Of a stretch of 64,000 nt of DNA, positions 45,083 to 56,863 are shown one piece after another. The position numbers and the translations under genes are program-made. Numbering within the stretch: the first letter of the stretch is position 1; the number at the start of each line of letters is the position of its first letter. The notes under the pieces were generated by a model, which saw only the letters and a list, made by a program, of their open reading frames with translations, was not told where the DNA came from and did not search any database. Origin of the DNA: Exiguobacterium marinum DSM 16307. GTDB lineage: Bacteria > Bacillota > Bacilli > Exiguobacteriales > Exiguobacteriaceae. The stretch covers positions 635,662-699,661 of the forward strand of contig NZ_KK211189.1 of NCBI RefSeq assembly GCF_000620845.1, written 5' to 3'.

Positions 45083-46798
45083 GTGAAACGACTGCAAGCC
45101 CTTGCGTTCGCCGAAAGAAGCCATATCAGCGGACTCGTATTATCTGCGGTCATGATTGGACTCTCCATTTTGGCACAAGCGTATTTAATCGTCGACATTG
45201 TCGACCGAATCTTCTTAAAAGATGAATCATTCGAAGCTGTCATCCCGGCATTGCTTTGGCTCGTTGTTGCACTGTTAGTACGGGCGCTTTTCGGTTATGT
45301 ATCTGGCCGAATCGGTGCGAGCCTATCCGAGAAGGCGAAACAGACGTTACGTCTTCAATTGTTGGATCGCTATGCCACGAGTCCGGTCGAATCGTCCTTG
45401 ACCGGTCAGTCTGGTAAGAAGGTCAGTGTGTTCATGGATGCCGTTGACGAGGTGGACGCTTACTTCAGTCAATACTGGCCACAAGTCATCCAGACATCGA
45501 TCATCCCGCTCCTCATTTTGGTCGTCGTTTTTAGCCAACACTGGATTTCGGGTGTCATCATGATGGTGACGGCACCGTTCATCCCGCTGTTTTTCATCAT
45601 CATCGGGATCGCGACTCAGAAAAAATCCGAAGAACAGATGGAAAAGATGAATCAATTTTCCGGAAAGTTCTTGGATGTTCTGCAAGGATTGACGACGCTG
45701 AAACTTTATAACCGTACCGAACAGGAAGCAATTGCAATCGAGAAGAGCAGCCTCGATTTTCGGGATGCGACAATGATTGTGTTGAAGACAGCATTCTTGT
45801 CCGGTCTCATGCTCGAATTTATCTCCATGCTCAGCACCGGGGTTGTGGCACTAGAAGTCGCACTACAGATGGTCGTTTGGGAGAATCTCACGTTCTTCTC
45901 AGGCTTTTTAATCTTGGTGTTGGCACCGGAGTATTACTTGGCCATTAAAGATTTAGGCAGCGCCTTCCATACGGGTCGAGGCAGTATGGGCGCGGCGGAT
46001 CGAATCTTTGAGGTGCTAGACGCCCCGGATGATCGTACTCAATGGGGAACGAAGTCGCTTGATTCACGGACACCAGACCTTGAACTCGAGGACATATCGT
46101 TCGAATATGCAGGCGGGCGCTTTGCGCTTCAGCCGTTGAGTGGTCGCATTTCATCCGGTACCCACCTCGCTTTAGTCGGTGCGAGCGGATCTGGGAAGAC
46201 GACGGTGCTCAACGTCATCTCCGGACTCCTGCAAGTGAAGTCGGGACGCGTCCTCGTGGACGGCGAACCACTTCATACGTTTGGTGAGTCTGCCTGGTAT
46301 GGAAACATTGCGTATATCTCTCAAAACCCGTATCTATTTGCGGGGACACTCGCCGACAATATTTCTTTAGGTGAGGCGGCCGATGAGCGGGAATTACAAG
46401 AAGCAGTCGAGGCAGCTGGATTATCTGAGGTGATTGCACACTTGCCGAACGGGATCTGGACGGAGCTTGGGGAAGGTGGATTTGGGTTATCCGGCGGTGA
46501 AAGACAACGTCTGGCACTCGCTCGAGCCTTCTTTAAACGACCAGGGATCTTACTGTTTGATGAACCGACGACCGGTCTCGATTTGAAAACAGAGCGAATC
46601 GTCAGACGTTCCATCGATGAGCTTTCCAAAGATGCAACGTTGATCACGGTGGCACATCGCCTGCATACAATCAAAGAGGCGGATACGATTTGGTTTATGG
46701 ATGACGGGAAGCGAATCGCAGAAGGGACTCATGAAGCATTGCTCGCTGTCCCAGAGTATGCGGAACTATTTGCGCTTCAGAAAGGGGTGAGTCGATGA
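45083..46798 (+). CDS. cydD: Thiol reductant ABC exporter subunit CydD
   Basis: Half of the CydDC exporter, which sends cysteine and glutathione-like thiols outside and is needed for assembling cytochrome bd oxidase. It has 571 residues: six membrane segments (about 1-320) and an ABC ATPase with Walker A VGASGSGKTT near residue 372 and signature LSGGERQRLALARA near 470. The GTG at 45083 is 9 bases after AAAGG and is preferred; ATG 45074 abuts that site. It overlaps cydC by 4 bases (ATGA). cydAB are not in the window. Confidence 0.9.
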   Translation: MKRLQALAFAERSHISGLVLSAVMIGLSILAQAYLIVDIVDRIFLKDESFEAVIPALLWLVVALLVRALFGYVSGRIGASLSEKAKQTLRLQLLDRYATSPVESSLTGQSGKKVSVFMDAVDEVDAYFSQYWPQVIQTSIIPLLILVVVFSQHWISGVIMMVTAPFIPLFFIIIGIATQKKSEEQMEKMNQFSGKFLDVLQGLTTLKLYNRTEQEAIAIEKSSLDFRDATMIVLKTAFLSGLMLEFISMLSTGVVALEVALQMVVWENLTFFSGFLILVLAPEYYLAIKDLGSAFHTGRGSMGAADRIFEVLDAPDDRTQWGTKSLDSRTPDLELEDISFEYAGGRFALQPLSGRISSGTHLALVGASGSGKTTVLNVISGLLQVKSGRVLVDGEPLHTFGESAWYGNIAYISQNPYLFAGTLADNISLGEAADERELQEAVEAAGLSEVIAHLPNGIWTELGEGGFGLSGGERQRLALARAFFKRPGILLFDEPTTGLDLKTERIVRRSIDELSKDATLITVAHRLHTIKEADTIWFMDDGKRIAEGTHEALLAVPEYAELFALQKGVSR

Positions 46799-48510
46799 AC
46801 TCGCTTTGGACAATCACAAAATGGATGATGCGCGAGAAAAAAGATATTCTTCTCTCTATCTTCTTTGGATACGCAGCCGGATTAGCGGCGGTCGCCTTGT
46901 TTGCGGCAAGTGGATACCTCGTCTCGCGGGCAGGACTCGTCCCGCCCCTATATGCGCTCATGGTACCCGTCGTTTTGATTAAACTGTTCGGGGTCATTCG
47001 AGCAGGAAGTCGTTACCGAGAGCGCCTTGCTTCACACCGAGCGACATTTACGATTTTGAGTGAGCTACGCGTTCGGTTTTATCGACAACTTGAACCACTC
47101 GTTCCTTCTATTTTCGCAAAATATCGGAGCGGAGATTTACTTTCGCGCGTCGTCGGAGATGTTGAGAGTCTTCAAAACTACTTTCTCCGTGTATTTTATC
47201 CGCCAATCATACTCGTGCTCGTCTTCTTAAGTACAATCTTCTTTATCACTTTCTTCTCATTTGCGGTCAGTCTATGGATTTTACTCGGTGTACTCGTCAC
47301 CGGCTTCTTGATTCCGCTCGGATTTGCTCGAATTCGCGCTCGTCATGATGAGACGATTCGTGCGTTACGTGGGGATGTGTCGATTCAATTAACAGAGATG
47401 CTGTACGGGCACCGGGATTTGAAACTTCATCACCAACTCGATCGCACGAAACAAGCTGTCTACACGCGTAGTGAACGTTACATGGAGGCGGAGCGGAAAG
47501 ACGCGACGAATCAATTTTTTAATTCGTCGCTCGTCGTCGCAGCCTCATTACTCGTCTCATGGGGCGTATTGGCAATTGGTGCGTATCAGGTGGTAAACGG
47601 AGACTTGAACGGTTTATTCTTGGCAATGCTCATCATGATGTCGCTCACCGCGTTTGAGAATACGACACCGATGGCTGTGTTCCCAGGACACTTTGCAGAC
47701 AGTAAGCAAGCAGCCGATCGTTTGTTTGAAGTGACAGAACCGAGTGAAGCGATTGAGGCGTTTGAAGCGAAACGACAGGACGTGACTTTCGCTGCTTCCC
47801 CGTCGATTTCCTTCGAAGAGGTTCGCTATCGTTATCCAGATACGTATCGAGATGTGATTGATGAGGTGACGTTACACATCCCGAGCGGTTCGAAGACGGT
47901 CATCGTCGGACCGAGTGGATCCGGGAAATCAACGTTGCTTCAACTATTGTTAGCATTCGTTCGAACGGAAAAAGGTGCGATAAGATTGGATGACAAAAAC
48001 CTGAACGACGTCAAACAGACAGCCATTTGGCGTCATGCGAGCGTCGTCTTGCAAGACAATCATTTCTTTTACGGCACCGTACGAGAAAACCTGGCGTTAG
48101 CCGGTGACTTCACAGATGAAGAGATGAACGTAGCGCTTGAGCGCGTCCGTTTGGCATTCTTGCTAGACGAACCGGTCCTTGAAAAAGGGGCAAACTTGTC
48201 AGGTGGAGAACGCCAACGTCTAGCCATCGCACGGGCACTTCTCAAAAACGGGCTACTCTGGTTGCTCGATGAACCGACATCGGCACTCGATGCAGGAACG
48301 GAGGCCCATGTCTTTTCTGAACTGTTACAGCAAGCGGGAGCAGGCACACTCATCCTCGTCAGTCACCGTTTGACGGGTCTAGAGACGTTTGATCAAATCA
48401 TCGTCATGGAAGCTGGACGGATTGTCGAGGTCGGTTCATACGAGGAGCTGATGACGAAACGTGGCATGTTCTATGAATTGAAACAAATCGAGCAAGAAGT
48501 GTTCGCATAA
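46795..48510 (+). CDS. cydC: Thiol reductant ABC exporter subunit CydC
   Basis: The second half of the CydDC exporter, 571 residues. Membrane domain (about 1-320) then ATPase with Walker A VGPSGSGKST near residue 373, signature LSGGERQRLAIARA near 470 and Walker B LLWLLDEPTSALD. It overlaps cydD by 4 bases, so a heterodimer in equal amounts is expected. The terminator after it is shared with the minus-strand sRNA candidate. Confidence 0.9.
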   Translation: MNSLWTITKWMMREKKDILLSIFFGYAAGLAAVALFAASGYLVSRAGLVPPLYALMVPVVLIKLFGVIRAGSRYRERLASHRATFTILSELRVRFYRQLEPLVPSIFAKYRSGDLLSRVVGDVESLQNYFLRVFYPPIILVLVFLSTIFFITFFSFAVSLWILLGVLVTGFLIPLGFARIRARHDETIRALRGDVSIQLTEMLYGHRDLKLHHQLDRTKQAVYTRSERYMEAERKDATNQFFNSSLVVAASLLVSWGVLAIGAYQVVNGDLNGLFLAMLIMMSLTAFENTTPMAVFPGHFADSKQAADRLFEVTEPSEAIEAFEAKRQDVTFAASPSISFEEVRYRYPDTYRDVIDEVTLHIPSGSKTVIVGPSGSGKSTLLQLLLAFVRTEKGAIRLDDKNLNDVKQTAIWRHASVVLQDNHFFYGTVRENLALAGDFTDEEMNVALERVRLAFLLDEPVLEKGANLSGGERQRLAIARALLKNGLLWLLDEPTSALDAGTEAHVFSELLQQAGAGTLILVSHRLTGLETFDQIIVMEAGRIVEVGSYEELMTKRGMFYELKQIEQEVFA

Positions 48511-48511
48511 T

Positions 48512-48676
48512 GAAAAGACGAGCAGCCCCGTCGATGGGCTGCTCGTCTTGTTTTTGGCAAATATGGGTGCAACAAATGGGGGTTGTCGCAATGCTTTCAA
48601 AAAGAGTGTCGTGGAGGGGAATCCACGTGACGTGATGTGTTTGGGGAACGTGCACGTCAAGCTTGTGGGAAGCTAC
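48512..48676 (-). ncRNA. Candidate Fur-regulated C-rich small RNA
   Basis: About 165 nt transcribed leftward from a strong promoter containing a Fur box, ending at an intrinsic terminator. No start codon with a ribosome binding site is seen on this strand. The RNA would carry several unpaired C-rich runs: TTCCCAC, CGTTCCCC, ATTCCCCTCC and CAACCCCC. ATTCCCCTCC is complementary to a GGAGGGG-type ribosome binding site. This is the design of iron-sparing sRNAs such as FsrA of Bacillus subtilis, which block translation by pairing C-rich loops with ribosome binding sites. The identification is inference; sequence identity with FsrA is not claimed. Confidence 0.6.
48514..48555. terminator. Bidirectional terminator (cydC and sRNA)
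   Basis: A 14-bp perfect stem (AAGACGAGCAGCCC / GGGCTGCTCGTCTT). On the plus strand it ends in T after a G, and on the minus strand the stem is followed by TTTTC. Confidence 0.85.
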
Positions 48677-48682
48677 AACTAG

Positions 48683-48712
48683 AGTATAGTTGATAACGAT
48701 TCTCATTGTCAA
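48683..48712 (-). promoter_or_regulatory. Promoter with embedded Fur box
   Basis: Minus strand TTGACA (48707-48712), 18 bases, TATACT (48683-48688). Between and over the -35 lies GATAACGATTCTCATTGTC (plus strand 48692-48710), which matches the 19-base Fur consensus at 15 positions. Iron-loaded Fur would occlude the polymerase. Confidence 0.75.
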
Positions 48713-48723
48713 TAAGAAATACA

Positions 48724-48757
48724 GAAAAAAATCCCACACATGGAAACATGTATGGGA
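48724..48757 (-). terminator. Intrinsic terminator of the membrane-protein gene
   Basis: An 11-bp stem with one G-U pair (TCCCACACATG / CATGTATGGGA) followed by seven T on the minus strand. Confidence 0.85.
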
Positions 48758-48771
48758 AATCAATCATCTGT

Positions 48772-49296
48772 TCAGTTCGAGGCGACGCCTTTTTGAACCG
48801 TGAACCGAATTAGACTGAACAAGTATCTCGTATAGAAGAGCGCGGACGCATAGAATAGCGCGATGAACGGTGATTGAAGATCAATCCCGGGAATGTTCAT
48901 TAAAAACTCTAATACGAGAATGGATAATAAGAACACGTAGAGAGAGGCATCTAGATAGAGTGGCATGAGACGACCACGCTGATGCCAAAATGTACGAATG
49001 AGTGGTGCCACTGTCATCCCGACGATTCGTTCAGCAAAGCCGATACTGAGTACAGCGATGATGAAAGATGAAATGGTGTTGAATGCCACTAACTCGGAGA
49101 ACACAAATCCTGAAATCAATAAGAGTGGACCTATGACGATCATCATCGAAAGCGACGTACGGAAGAAAATCCATAGGTTTTGTTGAATCGAACGAAATCC
49201 CCCGAGCGTTGATTGTTGAAGTGTCTTGCCACGTTTATAGTCAATCGCGAACGAGCTGATAAACATAATTCCAAACAAAGATAGCAAAATTGACAT
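48772..49296 (-). CDS. Hypothetical integral membrane protein
   Basis: About 174 residues with five hydrophobic segments (first LLSLFGIMFISSFA near residues 4-17, then at about 47-70, 76-95, 118-135 and 145-160). The ATG at 49296 is preferred, though AAAGGGGA lies 11-12 bases upstream, somewhat far; the frame continues upstream to 49338. I do not recognise the family. Its neighbours do not suggest a role. Confidence 0.65.
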   Translation of the reverse strand: MSILLSLFGIMFISSFAIDYKRGKTLQQSTLGGFRSIQQNLWIFFRTSLSMMIVIGPLLLISGFVFSELVAFNTISSFIIAVLSIGFAERIVGMTVAPLIRTFWHQRGRLMPLYLDASLYVFLLSILVLEFLMNIPGIDLQSPFIALFYASALFYTRYLFSLIRFTVQKGVASN

Positions 49297-49424
49297 GAAC
49301 GATGTTTCCCCTTTTCTGAATAAATCATGATGTACCAATCTGAACCAAAGTCTAGCCTAGTGTAACGATTCATTTCGAGAAAGTAAAGCGAGAAAATATG
49401 TTCATGTGTGAAGCGTTCGACACA

Positions 49425-50501
49425 TTAAGAAGCAAGGATGAAACGATTTCGACCAGACTCTTTTGCGTGATATAATGCTTCATCCGCATGTTTCAACACG
49501 CTATCGATTTCAATATCATTTGAATGGCAGGCGCCGAGCGAAACGGTAATGTGTAGCGTACCAACGCTCGTCTCGAACGAGAACGTTGAAACCTTTTCCC
49601 GAATAGATTCAGCAAGCCGTGATACTTCTTCTCGATTGGCGTGAGGCATGACGATTAAAAATTCTTCACCGCCGAAGCGACCGACTAAATGCCGCTCATT
49701 GCTTTCGTTGACGAGGAGCATGCCGAGTTCGCGCAAGACATCATCGCCGACGTCGTGACCGTACGTATCATTCACGCGTTTGAAGTGATCAATATCAACC
49801 AAGATTAACGCATACTCTTCTGCCTCGACGGTCAAGTTGGCCATGGCTTCGTTCAAGAGCCTGCGGTTGGCAATTCCGGTGAGTGCGTCCGTGCGTGCTA
49901 GTTGTTGTTGATGCTGAACGTTCTCGAAATGGCGACGCAATTCGAGCAGCAGTCGATAGGCGGCACAAGCTCCGCCATAAGACATTAGTGTATATACAAT
50001 CAAAACAGGATAGAATAAATTAAGTGGCAACGCAGCGTAAATTGCCGACCCAAAGATAGCGATGCTGATTGTTATAAAAATAAGTAGTGTCGGACGCGTA
50101 TTATCCATCCGCTTTCTAAGAATACTGGTAGATGCGACGAGAAGTACCATTGTCGCAACGGCGAGATAAAGCCCGAACATGGAACCGTCTGTCAATAAAA
50201 CGATAAAAAACCGACCTGTTAATAAAATAATGCCAGCGACAGCACCGCTTACCCACCCGCCAAATAGTACACCGAGCATGATTGGAATAGCGCGTAAATC
50301 AATGAGCACACCTTCGAGTGGTAACGCATTACCTAATAGGAGTAAAGCGATCAGTCCAGTTTGCACCCCGAGTAAGACTCTCCCCTTCAAAGGAGATTGT
50401 GGTGTTAAGCGAGGCCGATTGCGAAACGGCAAAAAGGAAATTGTGAAGAGCGTAAACAAGATACACAGGTTGATGAAGAACGCATTAATAATTGTGAGCA
50501 T
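49425..50501 (-). CDS. Membrane diguanylate cyclase (5TM-LYT sensor + GGDEF)
   Basis: A 358-residue protein that makes cyclic di-GMP. Residues 1-185 hold about five or six membrane segments with the LYT-type sensor pattern (IDLRAIPIMLGVLFGGWVSG, GGACAAYRLLLELRRH). Residues 200-358 are a complete GGDEF domain: ARTDALTGIANRR at the start, DIDHFKRVNDTYGHDVGD, and the active-site loop RFGGEEF. The ending EALYHAKESGRNRF is canonical. An RxxD inhibitory site is not obvious. The ATG at 50501 has AAGGGGG 8 bases upstream. The ligand sensed is unknown. Confidence 0.92.
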   Translation of the reverse strand: MLTIINAFFINLCILFTLFTISFLPFRNRPRLTPQSPLKGRVLLGVQTGLIALLLLGNALPLEGVLIDLRAIPIMLGVLFGGWVSGAVAGIILLTGRFFIVLLTDGSMFGLYLAVATMVLLVASTSILRKRMDNTRPTLLIFITISIAIFGSAIYAALPLNLFYPVLIVYTLMSYGGACAAYRLLLELRRHFENVQHQQQLARTDALTGIANRRLLNEAMANLTVEAEEYALILVDIDHFKRVNDTYGHDVGDDVLRELGMLLVNESNERHLVGRFGGEEFLIVMPHANREEVSRLAESIREKVSTFSFETSVGTLHITVSLGACHSNDIEIDSVLKHADEALYHAKESGRNRFILAS

Positions 50502-54845: not shown

Positions 54846-56258
54846 TCACAACCCGAGTGAGATATATTTCACTTCTAAAAACTCCTCGATGCCGTGATGG
54901 CCACCTTCTCGTCCGAGTCCACTCTCTTTCCATCCACCGAACGGCGCTTGAGGTGTTGACGGGAGCCCGTCATTCACACCGACGATTCCGTACTCTAACG
55001 ATTCCGCTAAATAGACCGCTTCATTGATGTCTTGCGTGAAGAGATAGGCAGCTAACCCGAACGGAGTATTGTTCGCCCGATTGATGACTTCATCGAGTGA
55101 ATCGAATGTGGCAATCGGCGCGACCGGACCGAACGTTTCCTCATTCATGCAGAGCATGTCTTCATTCGCATAGCGGATGACCGCAGGACGAATGAATAAA
55201 CCGTCTAACACTTCGCCACCGTATACTTCACCACCACGAATCTGGGCGTCCTCGATATGTTTTTCGACCTTACTAAGGGCATCGTCATCGATGAGTGGTC
55301 CGATATCGACACCTTCCTCTAACCCATTCCCAACTTTTAAAGATTCGACCTCTTTGATGAAACGCTCCGAGAAATCATCGACGACAGCGCGTTCTACATA
55401 AATTCGGTTGGCACAGACGCATGTCTGTCCGCCGTTGCGGAACTTGGTCGCGACTGCCTGCGGGACGGCTTTATCTAAGTCTGCCTTGGCCGTGACGATG
55501 AGCGGGGCGTGCCCACCTAGCTCGAGTGAAATTTTTTTCATCGTGTCCGCCGCATCACGCATAAGCATTTTTCCGACCTCTGTTGAGCCTGTGAATGTCA
55601 ATTTTCGGACTCGTTTATCTTGTTGCCACGCTTTGACGAGGTCGGAAGCTTGTCCTGTCACCAAGTTGATGACCCCTTTTGGGAATCCTGCTTTCTCGGC
55701 TAATTTCACGAGTTCAATGGCAGTCAGTGGAGTCGCTGATGCAGGTTTTATAACGACCGTGCAGCCTGCAGCGAGTGCCGGGGCAACTTTTCGCGTGATC
55801 ATGGCAGCCGGGAAGTTCCAAGGGGTGATGGCTGCGATGACCCCGATCGGTTGCTTGATGGCAAAGATGCGCTTTTGGTTCGATGAGGCAGGAATCGTCT
55901 CACCATACACACGGCGACCTTCCGCTGCGTACCAGTCGATGAATCCGTTCGCGTAGTTGATTTCACCAATTGCTTCTTTGAGCGGTTTCCCTTGTTCCTC
56001 GACCATTGTTCGGGCAAGCTCTTCCGTATGTTCTGCAATTAAACGATGCCACTCATTAAGTAATTCGCCTCGTTCTTCTGCGGTCTTTTGTTGCCATTCC
56101 CGGAGTGACTCATGCGCGGCATCGACGGCTTGTGTCGCTTCTTTCGTATCGCTTTTCGTCACGACGGCCATCACATTTCCTGTCGCCGGATTGCGTACTT
56201 CGATTGTTTGATCGGTTTCAGTCCATTCCCCGTTAATGTAGTTTTTCTCTTCTCGCAT
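54846..56258 (-). CDS. gabD: Succinate-semialdehyde dehydrogenase (NAD(P)+)
   Basis: An aldehyde dehydrogenase of 470 residues that oxidises succinate semialdehyde to succinate, the last step of GABA breakdown. The nucleotide site is FTGSTEVGKML near residue 215, the catalytic Glu is in SLELGGHAP near 245, and the catalytic Cys in NGGQTCVCANRIYVE near 280. QTCVCANR is typical of the GabD branch. The ATG at 56258 has GAAAGGGG upstream. No GABA transaminase is adjacent, so a wider aldehyde role remains possible. Confidence 0.9.
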   Translation of the reverse strand: MREEKNYINGEWTETDQTIEVRNPATGNVMAVVTKSDTKEATQAVDAAHESLREWQQKTAEERGELLNEWHRLIAEHTEELARTMVEEQGKPLKEAIGEINYANGFIDWYAAEGRRVYGETIPASSNQKRIFAIKQPIGVIAAITPWNFPAAMITRKVAPALAAGCTVVIKPASATPLTAIELVKLAEKAGFPKGVINLVTGQASDLVKAWQQDKRVRKLTFTGSTEVGKMLMRDAADTMKKISLELGGHAPLIVTAKADLDKAVPQAVATKFRNGGQTCVCANRIYVERAVVDDFSERFIKEVESLKVGNGLEEGVDIGPLIDDDALSKVEKHIEDAQIRGGEVYGGEVLDGLFIRPAVIRYANEDMLCMNEETFGPVAPIATFDSLDEVINRANNTPFGLAAYLFTQDINEAVYLAESLEYGIVGVNDGLPSTPQAPFGGWKESGLGREGGHHGIEEFLEVKYISLGL

Positions 56259-56350
56259 CTTGATTTCCCCTTTCCAAAAAGTGCACAGTTAATTAGAGGA
56301 TACCCGTTTTTCTGAAACGCACACAAACTTCCAAAAAATGAGGGGATATG

Positions 56351-56863
56351 ATGTGGATTATCATTGTCGGCTATCTAGTCGGAAGTCTGCTCGGAGGCAG
56401 GCTATATGGGTTATTAAGTGGACATGATTTAGCAACATCCGGTTCGAAAAATACCGGTGCACGCAACGCGCATCGCATCGGAGGGGTGAAGGCGTTTCTC
56501 ATCGTGTATGGATTCGACGTGCTCAAGACGATTCTTGTCTTACAGGTGAGCGGACCGTATTTTTGGCAGACGGCGTTCGCGCTCACGCTCGGTCATATTT
56601 ATCCGTTTTGGCGAATCCGTGCGGGCGGGAAGGGATATGCCGTTTTTTCTGGAATCATATGGGCGTATGACCCGTGGTGGTTTATCGGGGGGCTCCTTTT
56701 TCTGTTGTTGTTGATTAAAGGAACAGGTAATTCCCGTGAGACGGGACTGGTGATGCTCGTCTTACTTCCACTCGCTGCGCTTGGAAGTGTTGGAGACATC
56801 ATATGGGCAGTGCTCATCGCAGCTGTGATTATCTATCATCATGTGAAGGAGGGGAAACCATGA
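56351..56863 (+). CDS. PlsY-like glycerol-3-phosphate acyltransferase family protein
   Basis: A 170-residue membrane protein with five to six hydrophobic segments. It carries the PlsY signatures in modified form: GSKNTGARNAHR near residues 32-43 (for GSGNxGATNxxR) and GHIYPFWRIRAGGKGYA near 81-97. PlsY uses acyl phosphate to acylate glycerol-3-phosphate. This protein is shorter than usual PlsY (about 190-210) and has divergent residues in both motifs, so it may act on another acceptor. Its stop overlaps the next gene's start by ATGA, which links it to the GNAT-aminotransferase fusion. The ATG at 56351 follows GAGGGGAT. Confidence 0.82.
   Translation: MWIIIVGYLVGSLLGGRLYGLLSGHDLATSGSKNTGARNAHRIGGVKAFLIVYGFDVLKTILVLQVSGPYFWQTAFALTLGHIYPFWRIRAGGKGYAVFSGIIWAYDPWWFIGGLLFLLLLIKGTGNSRETGLVMLVLLPLAALGSVGDIIWAVLIAAVIIYHHVKEGKP

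Follow-up and report, generated by a model that had tools for sequence, protein, structure and literature searches.

The stretch of Exiguobacterium marinum DSM 16307 DNA analysed here, 64,000 nucleotides long and called the window below, carries on its minus strand (48512..48677) a noncoding RNA gene of ~165 nt that is conserved in 19/19 genomes of its GTDB genus. The element is real, and it is likely to specify a trans-acting sRNA, lineage-specific and repressed by Fur, that spares iron by repressing aconitase. In the mechanism proposed, Fur carrying Fe2+ would occupy a box inside the promoter and prevent transcription when iron is plentiful. When iron is short, an RNA of ~165 nt would be made, ending at a terminator that it has in common with cydC. 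The linker of this RNA, CUCUUUUUGAAAGC, would form ~14 bp with GCUUUCAAAAAGGG, from -24 to -11 in the acnA leader, and cover the Shine-Dalgarno sequence; with that sequence covered, ribosomes could not start, and the iron-sulfur enzyme aconitase would no longer be made. The conserved C-rich loops may also contact the G-rich start regions of further mRNAs, with sdhC, sdhA and the heme genes as weak candidates.

Promoter, Fur box and transcription unit

The promoter is formed on the minus strand by a -35 hexamer TTGACA (48712-48707), an 18-nt spacer and a -10 hexamer TATACT (48688-48683). The original prediction named this promoter and is borne out: the hexamers match the consensus at 11/12 positions and are the best of the four promoters found in 47500-49700, where shuffled sequences contain a mean of 2.7 sites. 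All 12 hexamer positions are invariant across the 19 genomes of the genus. The Fur box, GACAATGAGAATCGTTATC (48692..48710, minus strand), lies inside the promoter spacer and the -35 hexamer. Scored against the Fur consensus used here, it is the top site of the window. The original prediction was right to place a Fur box over the promoter, and its score of 15/19 holds for the plus strand; on the transcript strand the score is 16/19. The box reaches 16-17/19 in each of the 19 genomes.

In the 2.81-Mb genome that carries the window, the Fur motif has 11 strand-wise matches at eight places with up to three mismatches, and the reversed pattern has none. The sRNA promoter apart, three of these places are beside genes for Peripla_BP_2 binding proteins, one is beside a gene for a P-type ATPase and one beside a gene for a pyridine nucleotide-disulphide oxidoreductase. 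Five of the seven other places thus adjoin genes that would fit a Fur regulon; the remaining two (L035 and L038) are without a clear iron gene. A second Fur-like box is present in the window at 56350-56368 (minus strand, 15/19); the gene that begins ~90 nt downstream of it encodes an aldehyde dehydrogenase (54846-56258, minus strand).

From the position of the -10 hexamer, we infer that the RNA starts near 48677. Between promoter and terminator there is no gene downstream on the minus strand, as originally predicted, and the region ends with an intrinsic terminator (48512..48549; hairpin 48549-48515, 14 pairs) whose sequence fits termination on both strands. The RNA is considered a separate unit because a terminator-like hairpin (48757-48732, minus strand) follows the membrane-protein gene that lies upstream on the same strand (48772..49296). 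This gene has no Pfam or NCBIfam match, and by synteny it marks the place of the orthologous Fur promoter in the genomes of the sister genus. On the other side lies cydC (46795..48510, plus strand; TIGR02868 above cut-off), which converges on the sRNA gene and adjoins it at 18/19 loci of the genus; it was not found at the G011 locus. The sRNA terminator hairpin, in its plus-strand sense, probably also ends cydC. G011 (L014, ~1450-1500) has lost both the adjacent cydC and the 3' half of the terminator, in whose place stands an unrelated hairpin followed by a T-run. The replacement suggests selection to keep a terminator.

The convergent arrangement and the common terminator could indicate a transcript that is antisense to cydCD, or overlaps it at the 3' end, and acts in cis. 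This is highly improbable, since the terminator precedes the cydC coding sequence, G011 keeps the RNA with no cydC found beside it, and the same promoter, in the sister-genus genome G019, is ~15 kb away from cydC and serves a different gene.

Structure, conservation and range of the RNA

The sRNA folds with an energy of -56.4 kcal/mol compared to -33.3 kcal/mol for shuffled sequences (z -5.8; 0/200 shuffles as good). A consensus fold was computed with RNAalifold from 18 sequences, L014 of G011 with its replaced terminator being left out of alignment A1, and consists of four hairpins followed by the terminator, all on the minus strand. Hairpin 1 (48660..48674) has the loop UCCCACA and an invariant stem. 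Hairpin 2 (48628..48659) has an inner stem and loop, GUUCCCCAAAC, in which 11/11 positions are invariant in the 19 genomes, and an outer stem with compensatory changes at 4/7 pairs. Hairpin 3 (48610..48627; CGUGGA-UUCCCC-UCCACG) has a stem that is invariant in the 18 aligned sequences, and 16/18 of its positions are invariant in the 19 genomes. The linker CUCUUUUUGAAAGC (48593..48606), the predicted acnA-pairing segment, lies between hairpins 3 and 4. Hairpin 4 (48568..48590; 19/23 positions invariant in the 19 genomes) has the loop CCCCCAU and an invariant G-U pair, which favours transcription from the minus strand.

Changes on both sides of a pair are seen at 8/42 pairs of the 18 sequences, four in hairpin 2 and four in the terminator; covariation, proposed earlier as a check on the RNA, is thus found in these two elements. 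For the four hairpins alone, both-side changes occur at 4/28 pairs, a level reached by 1/500 column shuffles, and a second covariation measure, 'further pair types', was not above shuffles for the same hairpins (97/500). Hairpins 1 and 3 give no covariation evidence either way because their stems do not vary. All 14 nt of the linker are unpaired in the consensus fold; in single-sequence folds, 4/14 nt (centroid) or 8/14 nt (minimum energy) are paired. The C-rich runs (TCCC, CCCC, TTCCCC and CCCCC) are mostly hairpin loops and not the free single strands of the original description, and the TCC of CCCCTCC is in a stem.

In the 58 nt upstream of the promoter, one position is invariant in the 19 genomes, while the hexamers and hairpins are held; in the linker region, 12/18 positions are invariant, slightly below the loops. 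Several open frames run through the region, which might therefore code for a leader peptide or a small conserved protein; this is exceedingly improbable. In the search for a conserved small open frame that could explain the region, none of the frames of at least 10 aa that begin within the transcript is preceded by a ribosome binding site motif in any of the 19 genomes, and just one of these frames (L015) has an ATG start. Across the genomes the frames change register or extend past the end of the transcript, while conservation tracks loops and stems and one stem covaries.

A different noncoding function, in which a Fur-regulated RNA sequesters a protein through its repeated C-rich loops and is not directed at mRNAs, is quite improbable. 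The presence of several hairpins with similar, nearly invariant UUCCCC/CCCCC loops is consistent with such a sponge, which would need neither a conserved linker nor an exact complement in acnA.

The sRNA element occurs in single copy in each of the 19 genomes of the genus (E 5.2e-42 or better), and a covariance model of the sRNA likewise finds members in all of them. A scan of named genomes with an exact pattern gave 14 stretches, all from Exiguobacterium, including E. profundum, E. aestuarii and E. aurantiacum. In the sister genus, the model gives weak matches in 5/19 genomes (E 1.9e-5 or worse). These were rejected as terminators; in ~3-kb loci around the best match of each of the five genomes, there is no Fur box of at least 14/19. 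In a class sample of 299 genomes, searched with a cut-off of E 1e-5 and stricter filters, the model finds the 14 genus members drawn and 1 of the 285 other genomes (G168, E 2.4e-6). The G168 match was rejected as well, being terminator-like with no good Fur box within 2.5 kb around it. No Rfam family matches the sRNA region at its gathering threshold, and the weak matches (to E 10 or E 1) are to unrelated families, below their thresholds. FsrA and RyhB, which have models in Rfam, are not among the matches up to E 10, the Rfam FsrA model itself being without a positive control here. Promoter, Fur box, structure and sequence are kept in the genus (19/19, structure counted on 18), and the original suggestion of a lineage-specific family is supported: the model finds 19/19 genus members, and elsewhere just weak or terminator-like matches.

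Predicted pairing with acnA and other candidate targets

The strongest lead on function is the complementarity of the linker, CTCTTTTTGAAAGC in DNA letters, to the Shine-Dalgarno region of acnA over 14 bp; acnA is the predicted main target of the sRNA and the sole target claimed. In G000, the linker pairs with GCTTTCAAAAAGGG at -24 to -11 of acnA, over the Shine-Dalgarno sequence, through 12 Watson-Crick pairs plus a G-U and a G-C pair. The 14-bp helix is found in 15/19 genomes and is shortened to 12 bp in G001 and G003. A substitution in acnA disrupts it in G012, and the RNA of G016 has lost 1 nt, which weakens it. In these four genomes, another segment of the RNA outscores the linker after accessibility is taken into account. 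A 13-mer of the element, GCTTTCAAAAAGG, is present in 18/19 genomes, once each at acnA, with one extra copy in G015; the reversed pattern is absent.

The pairing was ranked among 469 start regions taken from 464 kb (16.5% of the genome), in 20 stretches of which eight were chosen for acnA, sdh or Fur sites and the rest were spaced. acnA ranks 3 with accessibility and 5 by pairing alone. It has the longest Watson-Crick run of the 469, 12 pairs; the next has 10, as do the reversed and complemented controls. An earlier and unsuitable scoring, a duplex search with unlimited loops, had ranked acnA 55 and sdhC 111 of 469 by total. The statistical support is modest, in that 6/300 shuffled RNAs pair with acnA as well as the real one. 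The acnA element could be conserved for a separate reason, such as a cre half-site, as its GCTTTCA resembles half of the CcpA cre motif. The left half of this cre-like sequence is poor at acnA, with 3-4 mismatches in 14 in 19/19 genomes.

Two other genes rank above acnA with accessibility, and both were set aside. The first (rank 1) is a GH4 glycosidase gene (L199 3053-4372, minus strand), which pairs over 14 bp with the linker, but its GCTTTCA is within a cre-like AGAAATCGCTTTCA, read by eye against the cre consensus; this pairing is probably not driven by the sRNA. The second (rank 2), a DUF5692 gene (L200 14552-15496, minus strand), has a 19-bp match including G-U, the strongest single pairing of the 469. 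The match is kept in G012 (17 bp) and lost in G009 and G005, these three being the sole other orthologues in the stretches of nine relatives.

In the mechanism originally stated, the run CCCCTCC would pair with GGAGGGG as a common ribosome binding site. This mechanism is to be revised: the best-supported pairing uses the U-rich linker. GGAGGGG occurs in the 20-nt stretch upstream of 4/469 start regions, so that it is neither common nor acceptable as the main pairing. More generally, the C-rich loops could be the chief acting part of the sRNA and bind a large number of G-rich ribosome binding sites, with the match to acnA being incidental. The loops are single-stranded yet almost invariant, slightly more so than the linker; GGGG is present in 87/469 start regions, and hairpin 2 or 3 takes part in 31 of the 50 best pairings. 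We nevertheless consider this unlikely. Besides the scarcity of GGAGGGG, start regions scoring -8 or better are no commoner with the real RNA (14 of 469) than with the reversed RNA (13), and the complement of the linker is found almost exclusively at acnA.

A broad C-rich targetome is not supported, because good scores are no commoner than with reversed RNA. Target prediction, as proposed in the original prediction, thus gave a high rank to acnA and no distinction between real and reversed RNA for a broader set. Further genes do appear in the top 30 (sdhA 7, hemE 8, hfq 24, sdhC 26 and hemH 30 of 469), four of these five being in stretches picked for sdh or a Fur site. The claim is limited to acnA because of this choice of stretches and because the scores match those of reversed RNA. 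sdhC was rejected as a main target, as 74/300 shuffles pair with it as well. The hfq start region (L205 3046-3294, minus strand) pairs with hairpin 3 of the sRNA through 10 Watson-Crick pairs; the hfq element GGGGGAATCCA is present in 6/19 genomes and Hfq itself in 19/19.

Relation to known iron-sparing sRNAs and the sister genus

Iron-sparing sRNAs with which the present RNA can be compared are known from three groups of bacteria. FsrA of Bacillus subtilis is described in PMC12871923 as an 84-nt, Fur-repressed RNA with C-rich stretches that works with FbpABC and without Hfq, and it represses aconitase (citB) and sdhCAB (PMC12871923, PMC11257911). The RNA described here resembles FsrA in having a Fur box, C-rich stretches and a predicted aconitase target; it differs in its length of ~165 nt, in its four hairpins and in its best pairing being by a U-rich linker. 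IsrR of Staphylococcus is Fur-controlled and found throughout the genus; aconitase (citB) is among its targets (PMC9410917, PMC11257911). The likeness includes genus-wide occurrence, a Fur-box promoter, hairpins, C-rich loops, an intrinsic terminator and a predicted aconitase target. IsrR is described with two Fur boxes and three C-rich regions (PMC9410917) and with three hairpins plus a terminator, whereas the present RNA has a single clear Fur box, four hairpins, each with a C-rich loop, and a terminator. The present RNA is thus set apart from IsrR by layout as described, and its model gives one weak, terminator-like match in the 285 other genomes of the class. RyhB of Enterobacteria is Fur-repressed, with targets including aconitase and succinate dehydrogenase according to the account in PMC11257911, and it depends on Hfq according to that in PMC9410917. 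It shares with the present RNA repression by Fur and aconitase as a target, both predicted in our case.

Neither its size nor its layout nor the model matches support placing the RNA in the FsrA, IsrR or RyhB families. The RNA has one mark of the functional class, a Fur box of 16-17/19 overlapping the promoter of a noncoding RNA in 19/19 genomes, with no conserved ORF. The original proposal of a functional analogue of FsrA and RyhB has computational support in the Fur box and promoter of all 19 genomes and in aconitase as the predicted main target. By inference from these likenesses, the RNA may be a functional analogue of FsrA, IsrR and RyhB without detectable kinship to them, and a known way of saving iron seems to have arisen here independently.

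The sister genus provides a control for the acnA element and shows a different product of what is apparently the same promoter. The 12-nt core GCTTTCAAAAAG is absent from 19/19 sister-genus acnA loci, whose leaders read ...ACTTAAAGGGGGAATC in 18 genomes and ...CATCTGCAAGGGGGAAATC in G024; as GGGGGAATC would still allow pairing with hairpin 3, the control covers the linker element alone. Behind cydC, there is no Fur box of at least 14/19 within ~1.5 kb in any of the 19 sister-genus genomes. The promoter string TTGACAATGATAATCGTTATCA-NN-TATANT is nevertheless found in all of them (L104-L122, ~1500), where the Fur promoter drives a nitroreductase gene (PF00881) in 19/19. Upstream on the same strand lies a homologue of the membrane-protein gene (30-37% identity, 19/19). 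Its match ends 44-120 nt before the promoter in 18 genomes and 603 nt before it in G024; in the sRNA genus, the corresponding distance to the sRNA promoter is 52-64 nt in 19/19. The nitroreductase gene starts 51-52 nt from the start of the -35 hexamer in 18 genomes and 301 nt from it in G024. G024 (L109 1500-1800) has an extra leader of ~250 nt between the Fur promoter and the nitroreductase gene, with no Rfam match up to E 5, and a gap of ~600 nt before the promoter. No nitroreductase of the sister-genus type was found in the 464 kb sampled of the genome that carries the window.

The agreement in position and sequence across the sister genera argues that the Fur promoter goes back to a single ancestral element and has two different outputs. 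We suggest tentatively, as an idea that may well prove wrong, that the output of this ancestral promoter was exchanged, nitroreductase mRNA against sRNA, and that the sRNA co-evolved with the 14-nt element in the acnA leader.

To our knowledge, the origins of iron-sparing sRNAs have mostly remained obscure. Such RNAs are reported to recur across bacteria without common synteny or sequence (PMC9410917). Our literature searches, which covered result listings and passages of PMC10837837, brought up no Fur-linked sRNA of this kind for Exiguobacterium; those passages count sRNAs, with no mention of Fur. If the exchange of outputs is true, it would be a traceable case in which promoter takeover gave rise to an sRNA and a target site for it arose as well. 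Here, the location of a promoter can be followed from one sister genus to the other although its products differ, and the predicted acnA target site occurs only where the sRNA does. How an iron-sparing sRNA and its target arose thus becomes directly testable in environmental bacteria.
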